A DNA stretch of 24,827 nucleotides from a virus. Positions 7,509 through 12,955 of this stretch are shown piece after piece (position 1 is the stretch's first letter; every line of letters begins with the position of its first letter). The stretch covers positions 1 through 24,827 of the IMG/VR virus record IMGVR_UViG_3300031631_000023; one strand, given 5' to 3'. Position numbers and translations under genes: made by a program. Under the pieces are notes generated by a model that did not search any database, was not told the origin of the DNA, and saw nothing but the letters and a program-made list of their open reading frames with translations.

Positions 7509-7813
7509 GGTCTTGCCTCAGTGTGAGTTGTGGTGGCTCGCGGCACCCACGTGCCGTCCTTAATCAATTCGCGAGCATGAGTCCTCAGTAGCAGGTTTGC
7601 GTCGCGTATTGGGCGACCGCCAACGCTGACCCAATCTCGCTCCGTCCAGTGCGCTACGAACTCGCGCAGCGCCTTGTCTGTGTAGCGCAGGCTCGCCGCG
7701 TACCGGTGCAGGTCGGCGAACGTCGGTGGCCAGTCCGCGAGGTCTGCCCACATGTACTCCCCGCCATTGCGCGGGATGTGCGGGCGCTCGCTGAGTTGAT
7801 GTTGGCTATCCAT
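7505..7813 (-). CDS. Hypothetical protein after the helicase (102 aa)
   Basis: Not recognised. After a short polar N-terminus it has aromatic and acidic residues (WADLADWPPTFADLHRYAASLRY), then helices and a basic C-terminal third. The domain resembles a small helical replication accessory protein in composition only. The start overlaps the helicase gene by 8 bp and the stop overlaps the next start by 4 bp, so it is in the helicase message. The cluster of tryptophans (W23, W28, W56, W61) hints at a protein- or nucleotide-binding surface. Confidence 0.68.
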   Translation of the reverse strand: MDSQHQLSERPHIPRNGGEYMWADLADWPPTFADLHRYAASLRYTDKALREFVAHWTERDWVSVGGRPIRDANLLLRTHARELIKDGTWVPRATTTHTEARP

Positions 7814-9128
7814 GGCTCACCCACTGGTTTGTTGTTTTGTCGCGGAACGTCTGGGTCGGCCCGTCCCACTCAAGGTCGATCGTCCCACACGTGCCTTGGC
7901 GGTTCTTGCCAACGATCAGTTCTGTTGCGTTCGGGTCCGCGTCTGGCCGGTCTTGGTACGCCGCTTCGCGGTACAGGAACGCGATGATATCGGCGTCTTG
8001 CTCGATCTGCCCCGACTCGCGCAGGTCTGACATGTTCGGGCGCCGGTCCGCCCGCTTGTCGCACTCGCGGTTGAGCTGCGCGAGGGCGATGACGCAGACG
8101 CGCAGCTCCTTCGCGAGCGCCTTGAGCCCACGCGAGACCTCAGCCACCTCGGCTTCCCGGTTCGTCTGCCGCCCGTCAGCGCGCACGAGTTGCAGGTAGT
8201 CGACAATGACCACGCTGATTCCGTGTTCGGCCTTCGCCGCCGCCGCCGCCGCCCGTATCTGACCGATCTTCAGCGCTGGCCGGTCGTCGATGTGCAACTT
8301 GATGCCGCGCATGTCTTCGACAGCTTGGATCATCCGCGCATCCTGTGCGTCCGAAAACTGCGCTCGGTCGATCCGTTGCGCCGGTACGCGGGATGTTGAC
8401 GCGAGGTGACGTTGGCCCAACTCGGCAGTGCCCATCTCCAGCGAGAAAAACAGCGCCGTGTTGGTTTTGCCTGTCGCGCCGTCGACTGAGGATCCAACAT
8501 CGGCGGCGAGTTGCAGTGAGAGCGCGGACTTCCCCATCCGAGGGCGGGCGCCGATGATGATCAACCGAGGCTGGCGAATGCCGCCTAGTTTTTCGTTCCA
8601 GCCACGCAGTGATGTTTGGATTCCCGGCGTCACCCCTTCGGCCCGCGCCTTCTGTGCGGTGATGAGCGCCGCCTCTGCCGCCTCCGCAATCGTCACGGTC
8701 GCGCCGTTGCCCCGCCCGCCCTCGCTAAGGGCTGTAGCGGCCTCAGCGATAGCTGAGAGGGCCGCTGCGTCGTCGTCAGCCTCCAGCGCGGCAATGGCGC
8801 CACTAGCAGCCGCGTGTGCCCGTCTCCGTCTGGCGAGCGCCGTCACCGTCTCGCAGTGGTGGCGGATCGAGTAGCTGGTGCATCCGTCGCCCTCCAACTG
8901 AATGAGCGCCTTGAGGCGTCCTTCTTTGGATCCCATCGACGTGTGGACCGTTACCGGCGTCACCGGCGAGCCGGCTTGGCTCAACTTCAGGATGGCGCCG
9001 AACATGTCGCGCAGTTCGGGGTGGTAGATGTCGCTCGGGTCGATCGGTGGGATCGAGATCTTGCGGCGGTAGCCGATGTAGTAGCCGACGATTGCGCGCT
9101 CGGATGTCTCGTTGAAAAATACGTTCAT
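7806..9128 (-). CDS. dnaB: Replicative DNA helicase (DnaB family)
   Basis: A hexameric 5'-3' helicase that unwinds phage DNA at the replication fork. The 440-aa length and domain order match DnaB: a helical N-terminal domain (residues 1-130), a linker helix, then a RecA-fold ATPase with Walker A GARPRMGKS at 193-201, SLEM at 229-232, Walker B VVIVDYLQL at 306-314, AQLNRE at 350-355 and the arginine-finger/loop KNRQG at 408-412. The linker segment PGIQTSLRGWNEKLGG (168-183) is also typical. The gene starts in a 4-bp overlap with the HNH gene, with GGAG upstream. With the upstream initiator it parallels the O-P arrangement of lambdoid phages, except that P is a loader and this is the helicase itself. 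Confidence 0.95.
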   Translation of the reverse strand: MNVFFNETSERAIVGYYIGYRRKISIPPIDPSDIYHPELRDMFGAILKLSQAGSPVTPVTVHTSMGSKEGRLKALIQLEGDGCTSYSIRHHCETVTALARRRRAHAAASGAIAALEADDDAAALSAIAEAATALSEGGRGNGATVTIAEAAEAALITAQKARAEGVTPGIQTSLRGWNEKLGGIRQPRLIIIGARPRMGKSALSLQLAADVGSSVDGATGKTNTALFFSLEMGTAELGQRHLASTSRVPAQRIDRAQFSDAQDARMIQAVEDMRGIKLHIDDRPALKIGQIRAAAAAAKAEHGISVVIVDYLQLVRADGRQTNREAEVAEVSRGLKALAKELRVCVIALAQLNRECDKRADRRPNMSDLRESGQIEQDADIIAFLYREAAYQDRPDADPNATELIVGKNRQGTCGTIDLEWDGPTQTFRDKTTNQWVSHG

Positions 9129-9604
9129 GCTGTTGCTCCGTCGTACACGGTTGGCGTGTTGCTCAAATGCCAGCGTCTATGGTGCGACTTGCACAGCGCT
9201 CTGACGCTCATCCAGTCGCACTCCCGGTATGAGTCATGGTGCCACTCGTGCCGGCCGTGGCATGTTTCGTCTCGCTCTGAGCATGGGTGTTTTGCTGCGG
9301 GCAGTATTTTTCCAGCCTTAACGGCATGGCCAATGATGTTCCCCACGCGCAACTTCCATGGGTGCTTGTTGTAGCGCCTCATGACGCGAGCGGATTCGGC
9401 GGCCCTCCCGATCTCTGTGGCCAGTCGCGGGTCTCTGTATGACTTCATAATCGCCCTGCCCTTGGTGGTCGCCCTATACCGTCTTTGATTTTCGGCCCAG
9501 CAAGTTTTACACCACGCCTGCAATCCGTCTTTCGTGGTTTTGTTGTTGTAGAATTTGTCGTGTGGCTGACTTTCTCCACACTTCGTACATCGCTTCAAGC
9601 GCAT
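9125..9604 (-). CDS. HNH-type zinc endonuclease-like protein
   Basis: A likely HNH/endonuclease VII-like nuclease, to be taken cautiously. The N-terminus has two CxxC pairs (C6/C9 and C32/C35) separated by a DKFYNNKTTKDGLQAWC-type segment that is common in phage HNH proteins. The C-terminal half has C108, C115, then HEWHHDSY (119-126), C138 and SHHRRWH (140-146), an HNH-like set of histidines and cysteines. The ATG at 9602-9604 has GGAG 7 bases upstream; an ATG at 9625, overlapping the initiator stop by 4 bp, would add 7 residues. It lies between initiator and helicase genes, where it may resolve or nick replication intermediates or be a mobile insertion. Confidence 0.75.
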   Translation of the reverse strand: MRLKRCTKCGESQPHDKFYNNKTTKDGLQAWCKTCWAENQRRYRATTKGRAIMKSYRDPRLATEIGRAAESARVMRRYNKHPWKLRVGNIIGHAVKAGKILPAAKHPCSERDETCHGRHEWHHDSYRECDWMSVRALCKSHHRRWHLSNTPTVYDGATA

Positions 9605-9621
9605 GATATTGCTCCATAATG

Positions 9622-10452
9622 TCATTCTGGGAACTGCTCTCTTCTACGTCTCTCTCCGGGCGGCGACGTGTCCCCGTAGTTCCCGCTCTCAACCTTCGCC
9701 GCGTTGGTCGGGTTGCACAGCCAAACGAGGCTTGCCTTCCATTGGCGATCATTCTCCCCGCGAAGGTGCGCGCCTCGTGATGCGGCCTTGAATAATCCAT
9801 CCCAGTCGTAGCCCGAGCCGTTGGCCTTGATTGCTTTGGCGACTGTCTTGGTGATGGCTGGTGAAGGCATGCCGTCTGCGTCGGTGTTGATTTTTGGCAT
9901 CTTCGCCGGGACGCATGTGGCTAGGTAGGCACTGACTACGGCAACAACGGCCTTGTTGGCTTTCTCCTTCGGTGCTGCTTTAGGCGAAGCCGGTGCAAGG
10001 GTTAGTTGTTCAATGGATCTGTTAGTTGTCTGTTCTTGGATCTGTTCTTGGTGGGACACCTCGCCACCACCCGTGGGACGCCTCACCACCACCCGTGGGA
10101 CGCCTCGCCTCATGGGGTAGGACTTCTCGCCACCACCGTGGGACACCTCACCACCACCGTGGGACATATCGTCAAAACGCTTGAAGTTAAGCGTGTATAG
10201 GCTTGAAGTCTGGCCCTTTGCGTCGCCTTCACGAAAGCGATCTGTGATGGTGATAAGTCCTTTTCGGGCAAGACTGTTGAGTGCGCGGCTGACCGTCTTG
10301 CGGCACGATCCAAGCATGTCGGCGATGGTCCGTTGTGACGGGTAACACGTGTCTCGCTTGTCGGCGTGGAGCGCGAGCACGAGTAGCACGCCCTTCTCGG
10401 TGACGGTGACGCCGGGGTCTTTGATGATGCGATCAGGGAGGGCACCAAACAT
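9622..10452 (-). CDS. Replication initiator (lambda O-like, winged helix)
   Basis: The predicted origin-binding protein. Residues 18-90 form a winged helix (TEKGVLLVLALHADK, then YPSQRTIADMLGSCRKTVSRALNSLARKGLITITDR). Residues 94-134 are a low-complexity linker encoded by the iterons. The C-terminal motif, YDWDGLFKAASRGAHL (215-230) with WKASLVWLCNPTNAAKV (238-254) and SGNY (256-259), matches the conserved tail of phage replication proteins that recruit the helicase machinery. This domain order, with repeats between the two halves, is that of lambda O. The start has GGAGGG upstream. It should bind the iterons and load the DnaB-type helicase encoded two genes downstream. Confidence 0.85.
   Translation of the reverse strand: MFGALPDRIIKDPGVTVTEKGVLLVLALHADKRDTCYPSQRTIADMLGSCRKTVSRALNSLARKGLITITDRFREGDAKGQTSSLYTLNFKRFDDMSHGGGEVSHGGGEKSYPMRRGVPRVVVRRPTGGGEVSHQEQIQEQTTNRSIEQLTLAPASPKAAPKEKANKAVVAVVSAYLATCVPAKMPKINTDADGMPSPAITKTVAKAIKANGSGYDWDGLFKAASRGAHLRGENDRQWKASLVWLCNPTNAAKVESGNYGDTSPPGERRRREQFPE
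10051..10171. repeat. Iteron array within the initiator gene (probable origin)
   Basis: Five tandem units plus a partial sixth, with consensus GTGGGACRCCTCRCCACCAC and one or two extra C. Units begin at 10051, 10073, 10095, 10117, 10138 and 10159, with periods 22, 22, 22, 21 and 21. Because 22 is not a multiple of three, the same DNA is read in different frames, so conservation is at DNA level rather than protein level. A T-rich stretch (about 10008-10050) with a tandem TCTGTTCTTGG lies on one side, and an inverted repeat ACGCTT-6-AAGCGT (10177-10194) on the other. In lambda the origin iterons also lie inside gene O. Confidence 0.75.
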
Positions 10453-10455
10453 CGA

Positions 10456-10698
10456 TCAACCCTCCAGCTCGGAGATCATGACTGCGATGGTTTGGAACCA
10501 GCGTAAATGGGCGTTCCACAACGTATCGTCGACGTGGTCTTGCGGGTGGCTGTCAATATCGCGCGCCAGCCGTTTAAGTTGCTTTCGGATCGCTGGCGAG
10601 TGTTCGTCTGCCAAGTCCCAAATGAGTAGGATTGATTCGATCTGGTAATGAAACGCCAGCGCGTTCTCAATGCCGGTAACATGATCTCTCGTTGTCAT
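10456..10698 (-). CDS. Small helical protein upstream of the initiator (80 aa)
   Basis: Not recognised. It is almost entirely helical, with an amphipathic segment (ALAFHYQIESILLIWDLADEH, 13-33) and conserved-looking aromatic residues near the C-terminus (WNAHLRWFQTIAVMI). It starts at the ATG at 10696-10698, 12 bases after the end of a long leader stem; a GTG at 10705-10707 would add three residues. The ribosome site is weak (GGGTGGATA). It is the first gene behind the strong internal promoter and structured leader, three bases ahead of the initiator gene, so it may regulate replication. That is inference from position. Confidence 0.65.
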   Translation of the reverse strand: MTTRDHVTGIENALAFHYQIESILLIWDLADEHSPAIRKQLKRLARDIDSHPQDHVDDTLWNAHLRWFQTIAVMISELEG

Positions 10699-10709
10699 TG
10701 TATCCACCC

Positions 10710-10792
10710 TTGAACGCTGCCCAACACGCGCAGCAAACGCGAGTGAAGAGCGACTCGGGACCTTTCGGTCACATGTGTTGAGCAGCGTTCAA
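10710..10792 (-). ncRNA. Structured leader RNA with three-way junction fold
   Basis: In the leftward transcript TTGAACGCTGCTCAACAC (10792-10775) pairs along its whole length with GTGTTGGGCAGCGTTCAA (10727-10710): 18 bp with a single G-U pair. On the opposite strand that position would be a C-A mismatch, pointing to function in this transcript. Inside are a GACC-GAAA-GGTC hairpin with a GNRA tetraloop (10770-10759) and a CGAGT-8-ACTCG hairpin (10757-10740), giving a three-way junction. The stem ends 11 bases before the ATG of the 80-aa gene. It lies about 60 bases downstream of the promoter's start. No known RNA family is recognised; it could act as a cis-regulator or be a small RNA. Confidence 0.6.
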
Positions 10793-10857
10793 AAGTGAAT
10801 CGTTGCCCTTCTAGGTCCCCGTTTGCTGACAGGGAGCGCTCCATTGAGCACGCGAGA

Positions 10858-10887
10858 ATCATACGCACAGATGGCGCGGGGGGTCAA
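10858..10887 (-). promoter_or_regulatory. Strong sigma70-type promoter for the replication genes
   Basis: TTGACC (10882-10887, minus strand) and TATGAT (10858-10863) are separated by 18 bases, close to consensus. Transcription would start near 10850, leaving a leader of about 150 bases that contains the three-way-junction structure before the first gene. The -35 box lies just before the stop of the upstream gene. This allows the replication genes to be expressed independently of the small-gene block upstream. Confidence 0.65.
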
Positions 10888-10890
10888 GAT

Positions 10891-11106
10891 CTAGAGGATG
10901 ATGCAGGGCGTCTTGCCGGTCATGGTGTCGGCGGTGAACCAGTTGCTCTCCGAGTGCTTGATGATTGTGTACGCTTTCACGTCGACGTGGCGACCAAGAT
11001 CGACGTGCTCGTAATGCACCCAGCCGGTCAGCCGGATAACATGCGTCTCCGGCGGCAACTCTTGGAGGGCTGCGATTAGTTCGGCTACTGTTGTTGGTTT
11101 GCTCAT
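10891..11106 (-). CDS. Hypothetical protein (71 aa)
   Basis: Not recognised. The N-terminus (SKPTTVAELIAALQELPPETHVIRL) is a helix followed by a strand, a layout common in small phage proteins; later it has alternating strands (VDVKAYTIIKH, NWFTADTMTG). The ATG at 11104-11106 has GGAG seven bases upstream and overlaps the previous stop by 4 bp. A longer frame to 11364 is rejected because its extra part is arginine-rich shadow sequence opposite two better genes. It is the last gene before the internal promoter. Confidence 0.7.
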   Translation of the reverse strand: MSKPTTVAELIAALQELPPETHVIRLTGWVHYEHVDLGRHVDVKAYTIIKHSESNWFTADTMTGKTPCIIL

Positions 11107-12621: not shown

Positions 12622-12650
12622 ACGATAGACACCCCGGCACACCGTGTCAA
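12622..12650 (-). promoter_or_regulatory. Leftward early promoter (pL-like)
   Basis: A perfect -35 TTGACA (12645-12650, minus strand) and -10 TATCGT (12622-12627) with a 17-base spacer. Transcription should start near 12615, about 30 bases before the ATG of the first leftward gene. An 8-bp palindrome AACCGGTT (12649-12656) touches the -35 box, and two further dyads lie between it and the rightward promoter, suitable for repressor control. Confidence 0.7.
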
Positions 12651-12660
12651 CCGGTTTCGT

Positions 12661-12694
12661 GAACTTAGTTCTACGACGCATGAGAACAAAGTAC
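12661..12694. promoter_or_regulatory. Candidate operator pair in the divergent control region
   Basis: GAACTTAGTTC (12661-12671) is a perfect odd dyad (GAACT-T-AGTTC). GAACAAAGTAC (12684-12694) is a similar imperfect dyad, its centre 23 bp away, about two helical turns. Both lie between the -35 boxes of the two divergent promoters, where the HTH protein encoded at 12734 could bind to switch transcription. Binding is inferred. Confidence 0.45.
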
Positions 12695-12698
12695 GCGC

Positions 12699-12727
12699 TT
12701 GTGGTTTACCCCAGACTCGCGTACGGT
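12699..12727 (+). promoter_or_regulatory. Rightward promoter of the repressor gene (leaderless)
   Basis: TTGTGG (12699-12704) and TACGGT (12722-12727) are 17 bases apart. The -10 box ends six bases before the ATG of the HTH gene at 12734, so transcription would begin at or within a base or two of that ATG. No Shine-Dalgarno is present between them. Both boxes are imperfect, so this is a medium-confidence call. Confidence 0.5.
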
Positions 12728-12733
12728 GCCCAC

Positions 12734-12955
12734 ATGAACAAACGAAAAACATGGGCAGAAGAACTCGACGAATGGCTGACGACGGCACCGTGCACCGCTA
12801 CGGCGTTCGCGCTGTCGCTCGGGTTCTCCAAGCAGCATCTCAGCATGTTGCGGGGTGGCAGTCGTAAACCGTCTGATGAGCGCATGGACGCGATCCAGAA
12901 GGCCACCAAGGGCAAGGTCAAGGCTCGTTGTCGTGCTTGTGGGAGGCGGTCATGA
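12734..12955 (+). CDS. Cro/CI-like HTH transcriptional regulator (73 aa)
   Basis: A small helix-turn-helix protein that probably binds the dyads in the divergent control region. Residues 21-41 (TATAFALSLGFSKQHLSMLRG) form the HTH, followed by the GSRKPSDERMDAIQKATKG helix that is common in Cro-like proteins; the basic C-terminus contains CRACGRR. At 73 aa there is room only for a DNA-binding domain, so it is Cro-sized rather than a full CI with a cleavable domain. The ATG has no ribosome site and coincides with the predicted transcription start, which suggests leaderless translation. An upstream frame to 12644 would cross the promoter and is rejected. Confidence 0.78.
   Translation: MNKRKTWAEELDEWLTTAPCTATAFALSLGFSKQHLSMLRGGSRKPSDERMDAIQKATKGKVKARCRACGRRS

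Follow-up and report, generated by a model that had tools for sequence, protein, structure and literature searches.

A predicted structured leader RNA ahead of phage replication genes that resembles C4/CI-type RNA switches

What is the function of the noncoding stretch that precedes the replication genes of this phage? The window analysed here, a 24,827-nt contig of an uncultivated phage, is divided into leftward genes, which run from about 12640 to the left end and comprise early and replication genes, and rightward genes, which begin at 12644 with a repressor-like gene and continue with packaging and head genes. Within the leftward set, an interval of about 190 nt that lacks an open coding frame separates a small gene that ends at 10891 from a small ORF that starts at 10698. 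By analogy with the antisense RNAs through which phages P1 and P4 stay dormant, these nucleotides probably specify a leader RNA that is a distant relative of the C4/CI-type RNA switch, a relationship that is still unproven.

Genes and signals around the leader

The noncoding stretch opens with a promoter-like site and is followed by the small ORF and the replication genes:

10887-10858, minus strand: promoter-like site TTGACC-N18-TATGAT, 10/12 consensus matches (a consensus match only)
10456..10698, minus strand: small ORF of no known family, 80 aa from ATG or 83 aa from GTG at 10707
9622..10452, minus strand: replication initiator (O-like, HTH_36), which starts 3 nt past the small ORF stop
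7806..9128, minus strand: DnaB-like replicative helicase, downstream in the same operon

The initial annotation had placed a near-consensus promoter at 10858-10887, and the site is indeed present, its first hexamer beginning 4 nt past the stop codon of the upstream gene; promoter-like sites of such quality number 2 in 5.5 kb versus 1.2 expected by chance. The position of the promoter, the predicted fold, the strand preference and the gene order all support the proposal that a leader RNA precedes the replication genes. A coding leader is ruled out by stop codons in all three frames, and an intrinsic terminator was likewise rejected because no T run follows the stem described below.

Other elements of the window bear on replication and immunity. 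A 22-nt repeat occurs in at least 4 copies at 10050-10158, inside the initiator gene, and these repeats, about 550 bp downstream of the stem RNA, are a likely lambda-type origin within the O-like gene. Farther upstream, the repressor-like HTH gene (12644-12955, plus strand) is divergent from a second promoter-like site (12650-12622, minus strand), and the 12622-12955 region is probably the immunity switch that heads the leftward operon. The capsid protein had no match in the phage collection or among 294 genomes of one trial phylum.

A 26-bp stem and its strand preference

The principal element of the leader is a long stem that encloses smaller hairpins and takes up a ribosome site:

10702..10800, minus strand: stem RNA of 26 contiguous base pairs (arms 10800-10775 and 10727-10702) with 47 nt enclosed
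10759..10770, minus strand: hairpin 1, GACC-GAAA-GGUC (predicted fold)
10741..10756, minus strand: hairpin 2, GAGU-CGCUCUUC-ACUC (predicted fold), whose loop sits where P1 C4 has b'
10704..10711, minus strand: ribosome-site-like AAGGGUGG in the 3' arm of the stem (sequence and predicted fold)

The stem was initially described as having 18 bp with one deviation, a single G-U pair. Those 18 bp are only the inner part of the 26 contiguous pairs, and the deviations were undercounted: four pairs are non-Watson-Crick, and each of the four is a G-U pair in the leftward RNA and an A-C mismatch in the opposite strand. The accompanying claim of strand-specific pairing is supported by these deviations and by the predicted stabilities: over a 181-nt region, the leftward RNA has a folding energy of -84.1 kcal/mol (z -6.35, with 0/200 shuffles as good) and the rightward RNA one of -64.1 kcal/mol (z -2.69). 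The asymmetry of all four deviations favours the RNA strand and is suggestive only, its chance being 1/16 if each deviation is a transition. Under DNA folding, both strands are about equally stable.

The stem is the longest inverted repeat found in the window, and the best helix score was 23.2, versus at most 19.2 when the whole window was dinucleotide-shuffled 60 times. Other phage contigs contain a comparable helix roughly every 0.1-0.3 Mb, and several of these are apparently iterons or operators; length alone is therefore no proof of an RNA.

The interior of the stem had been described as a three-way junction with two hairpins, one of them capped by a GAAA tetraloop. Both hairpins and the tetraloop are predicted, and a weak third hairpin (GCGU-UUGCU-GCGC), also predicted within the stem, means that the junction is three- or four-way. 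The stem had further been thought to end just before a ribosome site; rather, it contains AAGGGUGG, the ribosome site of the small ORF that precedes the replication initiator, and this sequence is predicted to be fully paired (unpaired probability about 0). The ends of the stem are AUUCAC... (5') and ...GGGUGGAU (3').

Likeness to C4 and CI antisense RNAs

In P1, the annotated order is promoter, a1, b1, C4 RNA, a2, b2, icd and ant1, and the C4 RNA has a 17-bp stem that holds a tetraloop hairpin, a hairpin with the b' loop, and a single-stranded a' before the 3' arm. If the present RNA had the C4 anatomy, the strand after hairpin 2 should therefore match the leader, and a perfect 9-nt match was found there:

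10816..10835, minus strand: leader hairpin of 7 bp (predicted fold); the a1-like target is centred on its 6-nt loop CAGCAA
10820..10828, minus strand: a1-like target CAGCAAACG, perfect 9-nt complement of a' (10739-10731)
10731..10739, minus strand: a'-like recognition strand CGUUUGCUG, which follows hairpin 2, precedes the 3' arm and lies in part within weak hairpin 3 (loop UUGCU)
10805..10811, minus strand: possible b1-like target GAAGGGC, 7 bp including one G-U to the hairpin 2 loop

The a1-like target lies about 90 nt upstream of a', at the place of a1 in P1, and the centres of both sequences fall in predicted loops. A 9-nt match was reached by 17/5000 shuffled leaders when the a' strand was considered and by 53/5000 when the whole enclosed region was considered; the corresponding level was reached in 6/835 and 8/835 real segments and in 1/67 of the other long hairpins. 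Overall, the probability of the a1/a' match by chance is about 0.003-0.015, and the same test on the opposite strand gave 6 nt only. The b1-like sequence begins 8 nt beyond a1 (7 nt in P1), and a match to b' of this quality, which arises in 39% of shuffles, is no better than chance. Duplex energies between leader and loops discriminated poorly, P1 and P4 included.

Downstream of the RNA, a search for a2/b2 (seqC in P4) yielded no candidate better than chance. Positions 9272-9299, located in an HNH gene some 150 nt ahead of the helicase start, are complementary to both RNA loops (9 + 7 nt); as a seqC-like second target (9299-9272), this sequence was rejected as chance, since it was reached or beaten in 66/500 shuffles (0.13).

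The layout shared with the P1/P7 C4 RNA (RF01695, with c4-a1b1 RF03163) is extensive. In both cases, a promoter is followed by a leader target and a long closing stem, which encloses first a hairpin capped by a tetraloop and next one whose loop is larger, and the recognition strand a' comes right before the 3' arm; a small ORF follows, with the main gene at once behind it (icd-ant1 in P1). The differences are that the stem here has 26 bp rather than 17 bp and holds the ribosome site, that no clear a2/b2 is present, that RF01695 has no match at the region, and that the downstream gene is a replication initiator, whereas that of P1/P7 is an antirepressor. In P4, the leader of the alpha replication operon carries a C4 RNA (74.9 bits). 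The P4 CI RNA, a member of RF01695, base-pairs with one sequence upstream of it (seqA) and one downstream (seqC) and thereby ends transcription of the replication genes (PMC4825925). Shared with P4 are the C4-type layout in the leader of a replication operon and the complementary sequence upstream in the same leader; unlike P4, the present leader has no intrinsic terminator past the target, no seqC equivalent and no sequence similarity. Processed C4-type RNAs have an RNase P-type 5' end (GGW) and a CCA-like 3' end (PMC5320573), and the stem here lacks the GG...CCA-like termini used by RNase P in C4.

In a sensitive Rfam scan of 261 nt, the sole match was to c4-2 (RF02944), which belongs to the C4 antisense RNA clan; the match lay on the right strand and covered the whole model. 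The match scored 18.6 bits versus a cut-off of 41, with an E of 0.25 for the region against all families and 0.006 for c4-2 as a single family in the window; over the whole window and all families it is lost among chance matches. Much of this score may come from what any long stem would contribute. Among 50 other phage records compared with c4-2, one gave a match, at 12.4 bits. The RNA shares with c4-2 the GAAA tetraloop in hairpin 1 and the CGCU that starts the second hairpin, and differs from it in the segment behind hairpin 2.

The description of the RNA as undescribed is doubtful, because its anatomy follows that of P1 C4 and P4 CI, although its scores against the curated C4 families stay under their cut-offs. 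Given this score, the lack of a second target and the lack of RNase P-type ends, we do not file the stem RNA as a member of the C4 family; that it works like a C4/CI RNA we hold with moderate confidence.

Relatives, proposed mechanism and alternative readings

Viral contigs were searched with the helicase, initiator, small ORF, capsid and exonuclease proteins and with two DNA patterns, genome contigs with the small ORF and the initiator, and phages and plasmids by DNA or protein. The only relative found to carry the leader is a second contig of the same phage (L031:1-13267), which is 99.5% identical to the window overall and identical across the leader. The other 30 DNA-pattern matches in viral contigs were dismissed as chance, none having a convincing second arm. 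The search with a covariance model of the stem RNA that the initial annotation had proposed found nothing in 84 other loci.

By what mechanism might the leader act? We assign a probability of roughly 45% to a divergent C4/CI-type antisense RNA module that controls the replication operon. This reading builds on how the RNA folds and which strand it favours, on the complementary loops, on the order of the genes and on the burial of the ribosome site; from these we infer transcription, processing, action in trans and a role in immunity. Leftward transcription, begun at the 10887-10858 promoter or reading through from the early operon, would expose the a1 loop CAGCAA first, and the RNA would then fold into the 26-bp stem RNA with two or three small hairpins. 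The stem RNA may be cut out of the leader and accumulate, and its a' strand, through the UUGCU loop, could contact a1 of new leaders loop to loop in a pairing that extends to 9 bp. By analogy with P4 CI and P1 C4, such pairing may cause an early end of transcription or prevent translation of the small ORF and of the initiator gene coupled to it. The replication genes would thereby be held off, for example in a lysogen or against a superinfecting phage. It is also conceivable, if rather doubtful, that the leader belongs to an independent, so far undescribed class of phage leader RNA that does not descend from C4 and has arrived at the same design, in which the initiator is gated by a stem that buries the ribosome site and by a loop that kisses a hairpin in the same leader.

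To our knowledge, RNA immunity of the C4/CI kind has been well studied in only a few enterobacterial phages and satellites. If the antisense reading is true, the present locus would be a divergent case before a lambda-O-type initiator, found in a phage that has no known relatives, and would point to a wider use of RNA in controlling phage replication than curated models detect. Searching for a stem RNA plus upstream loop complementarity would then be expected to find members that covariance models have missed.

The main alternative mechanism, which we consider possible with the odds somewhat against it, is that the leader is purely cis-acting: the stem masks the small ORF's ribosome site, and its opening or cutting sets how strongly that ORF and the coupled initiator are expressed. 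A duplex of 26 bp is a likely RNase III substrate when it is uninterrupted, as the stem is here, and the full enclosure of the ribosome site, the placement of target and recognition loop on one transcript, and the failure to find a second target are all consistent with control in cis. The a1/a' match would then be an intramolecular kissing loop or chance; by itself, however, a cis-acting leader predicts neither the C4-like order of hairpins nor a 9-nt match at the places of a1 and a' in C4.

The palindrome could instead act as folded or palindromic DNA, either as an operator or as a single-strand initiation signal near the origin. An inverted repeat of 26 nt, the nearly equal folding of both DNA strands and the likely origin repeats about 550 bp off would suit such a role, and the long inverted repeats of other DnaB phages are often iterons or lie at divergent promoters. 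We nevertheless regard a DNA-level element as unlikely because the pairing deviations, G-U in the transcribed strand in four of four cases, favour a transcribed RNA; moreover, the 47-nt spacing of the arms is unlike that of an operator, and the element is located between a promoter and a start codon. Least probable of all, in our estimation, is a chance or passenger palindrome without a role, such as the remnant of a small mobile element. Its restriction to one phage and the frequency of similar hairpins in other phage contigs would be expected of a passenger, but no second copy was found in 2.9 million viral contigs or in plasmids, no clear target-site duplication is apparent, and the element fits exactly between the promoter and the ribosome site.

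Long hairpins or inverted repeats were also observed in other phages that encode DnaB. One contig (L088:3043-3159) carries a long hairpin that encloses three hairpins just upstream of an early ORF, and this hairpin, which has no relevant Rfam match, is more stable in the transcribed strand. Two others (L046:6854-6959 and L053:6727-6858) have long inverted repeats about 1 kb before DnaB that are apparently iterons within the preceding ORF.
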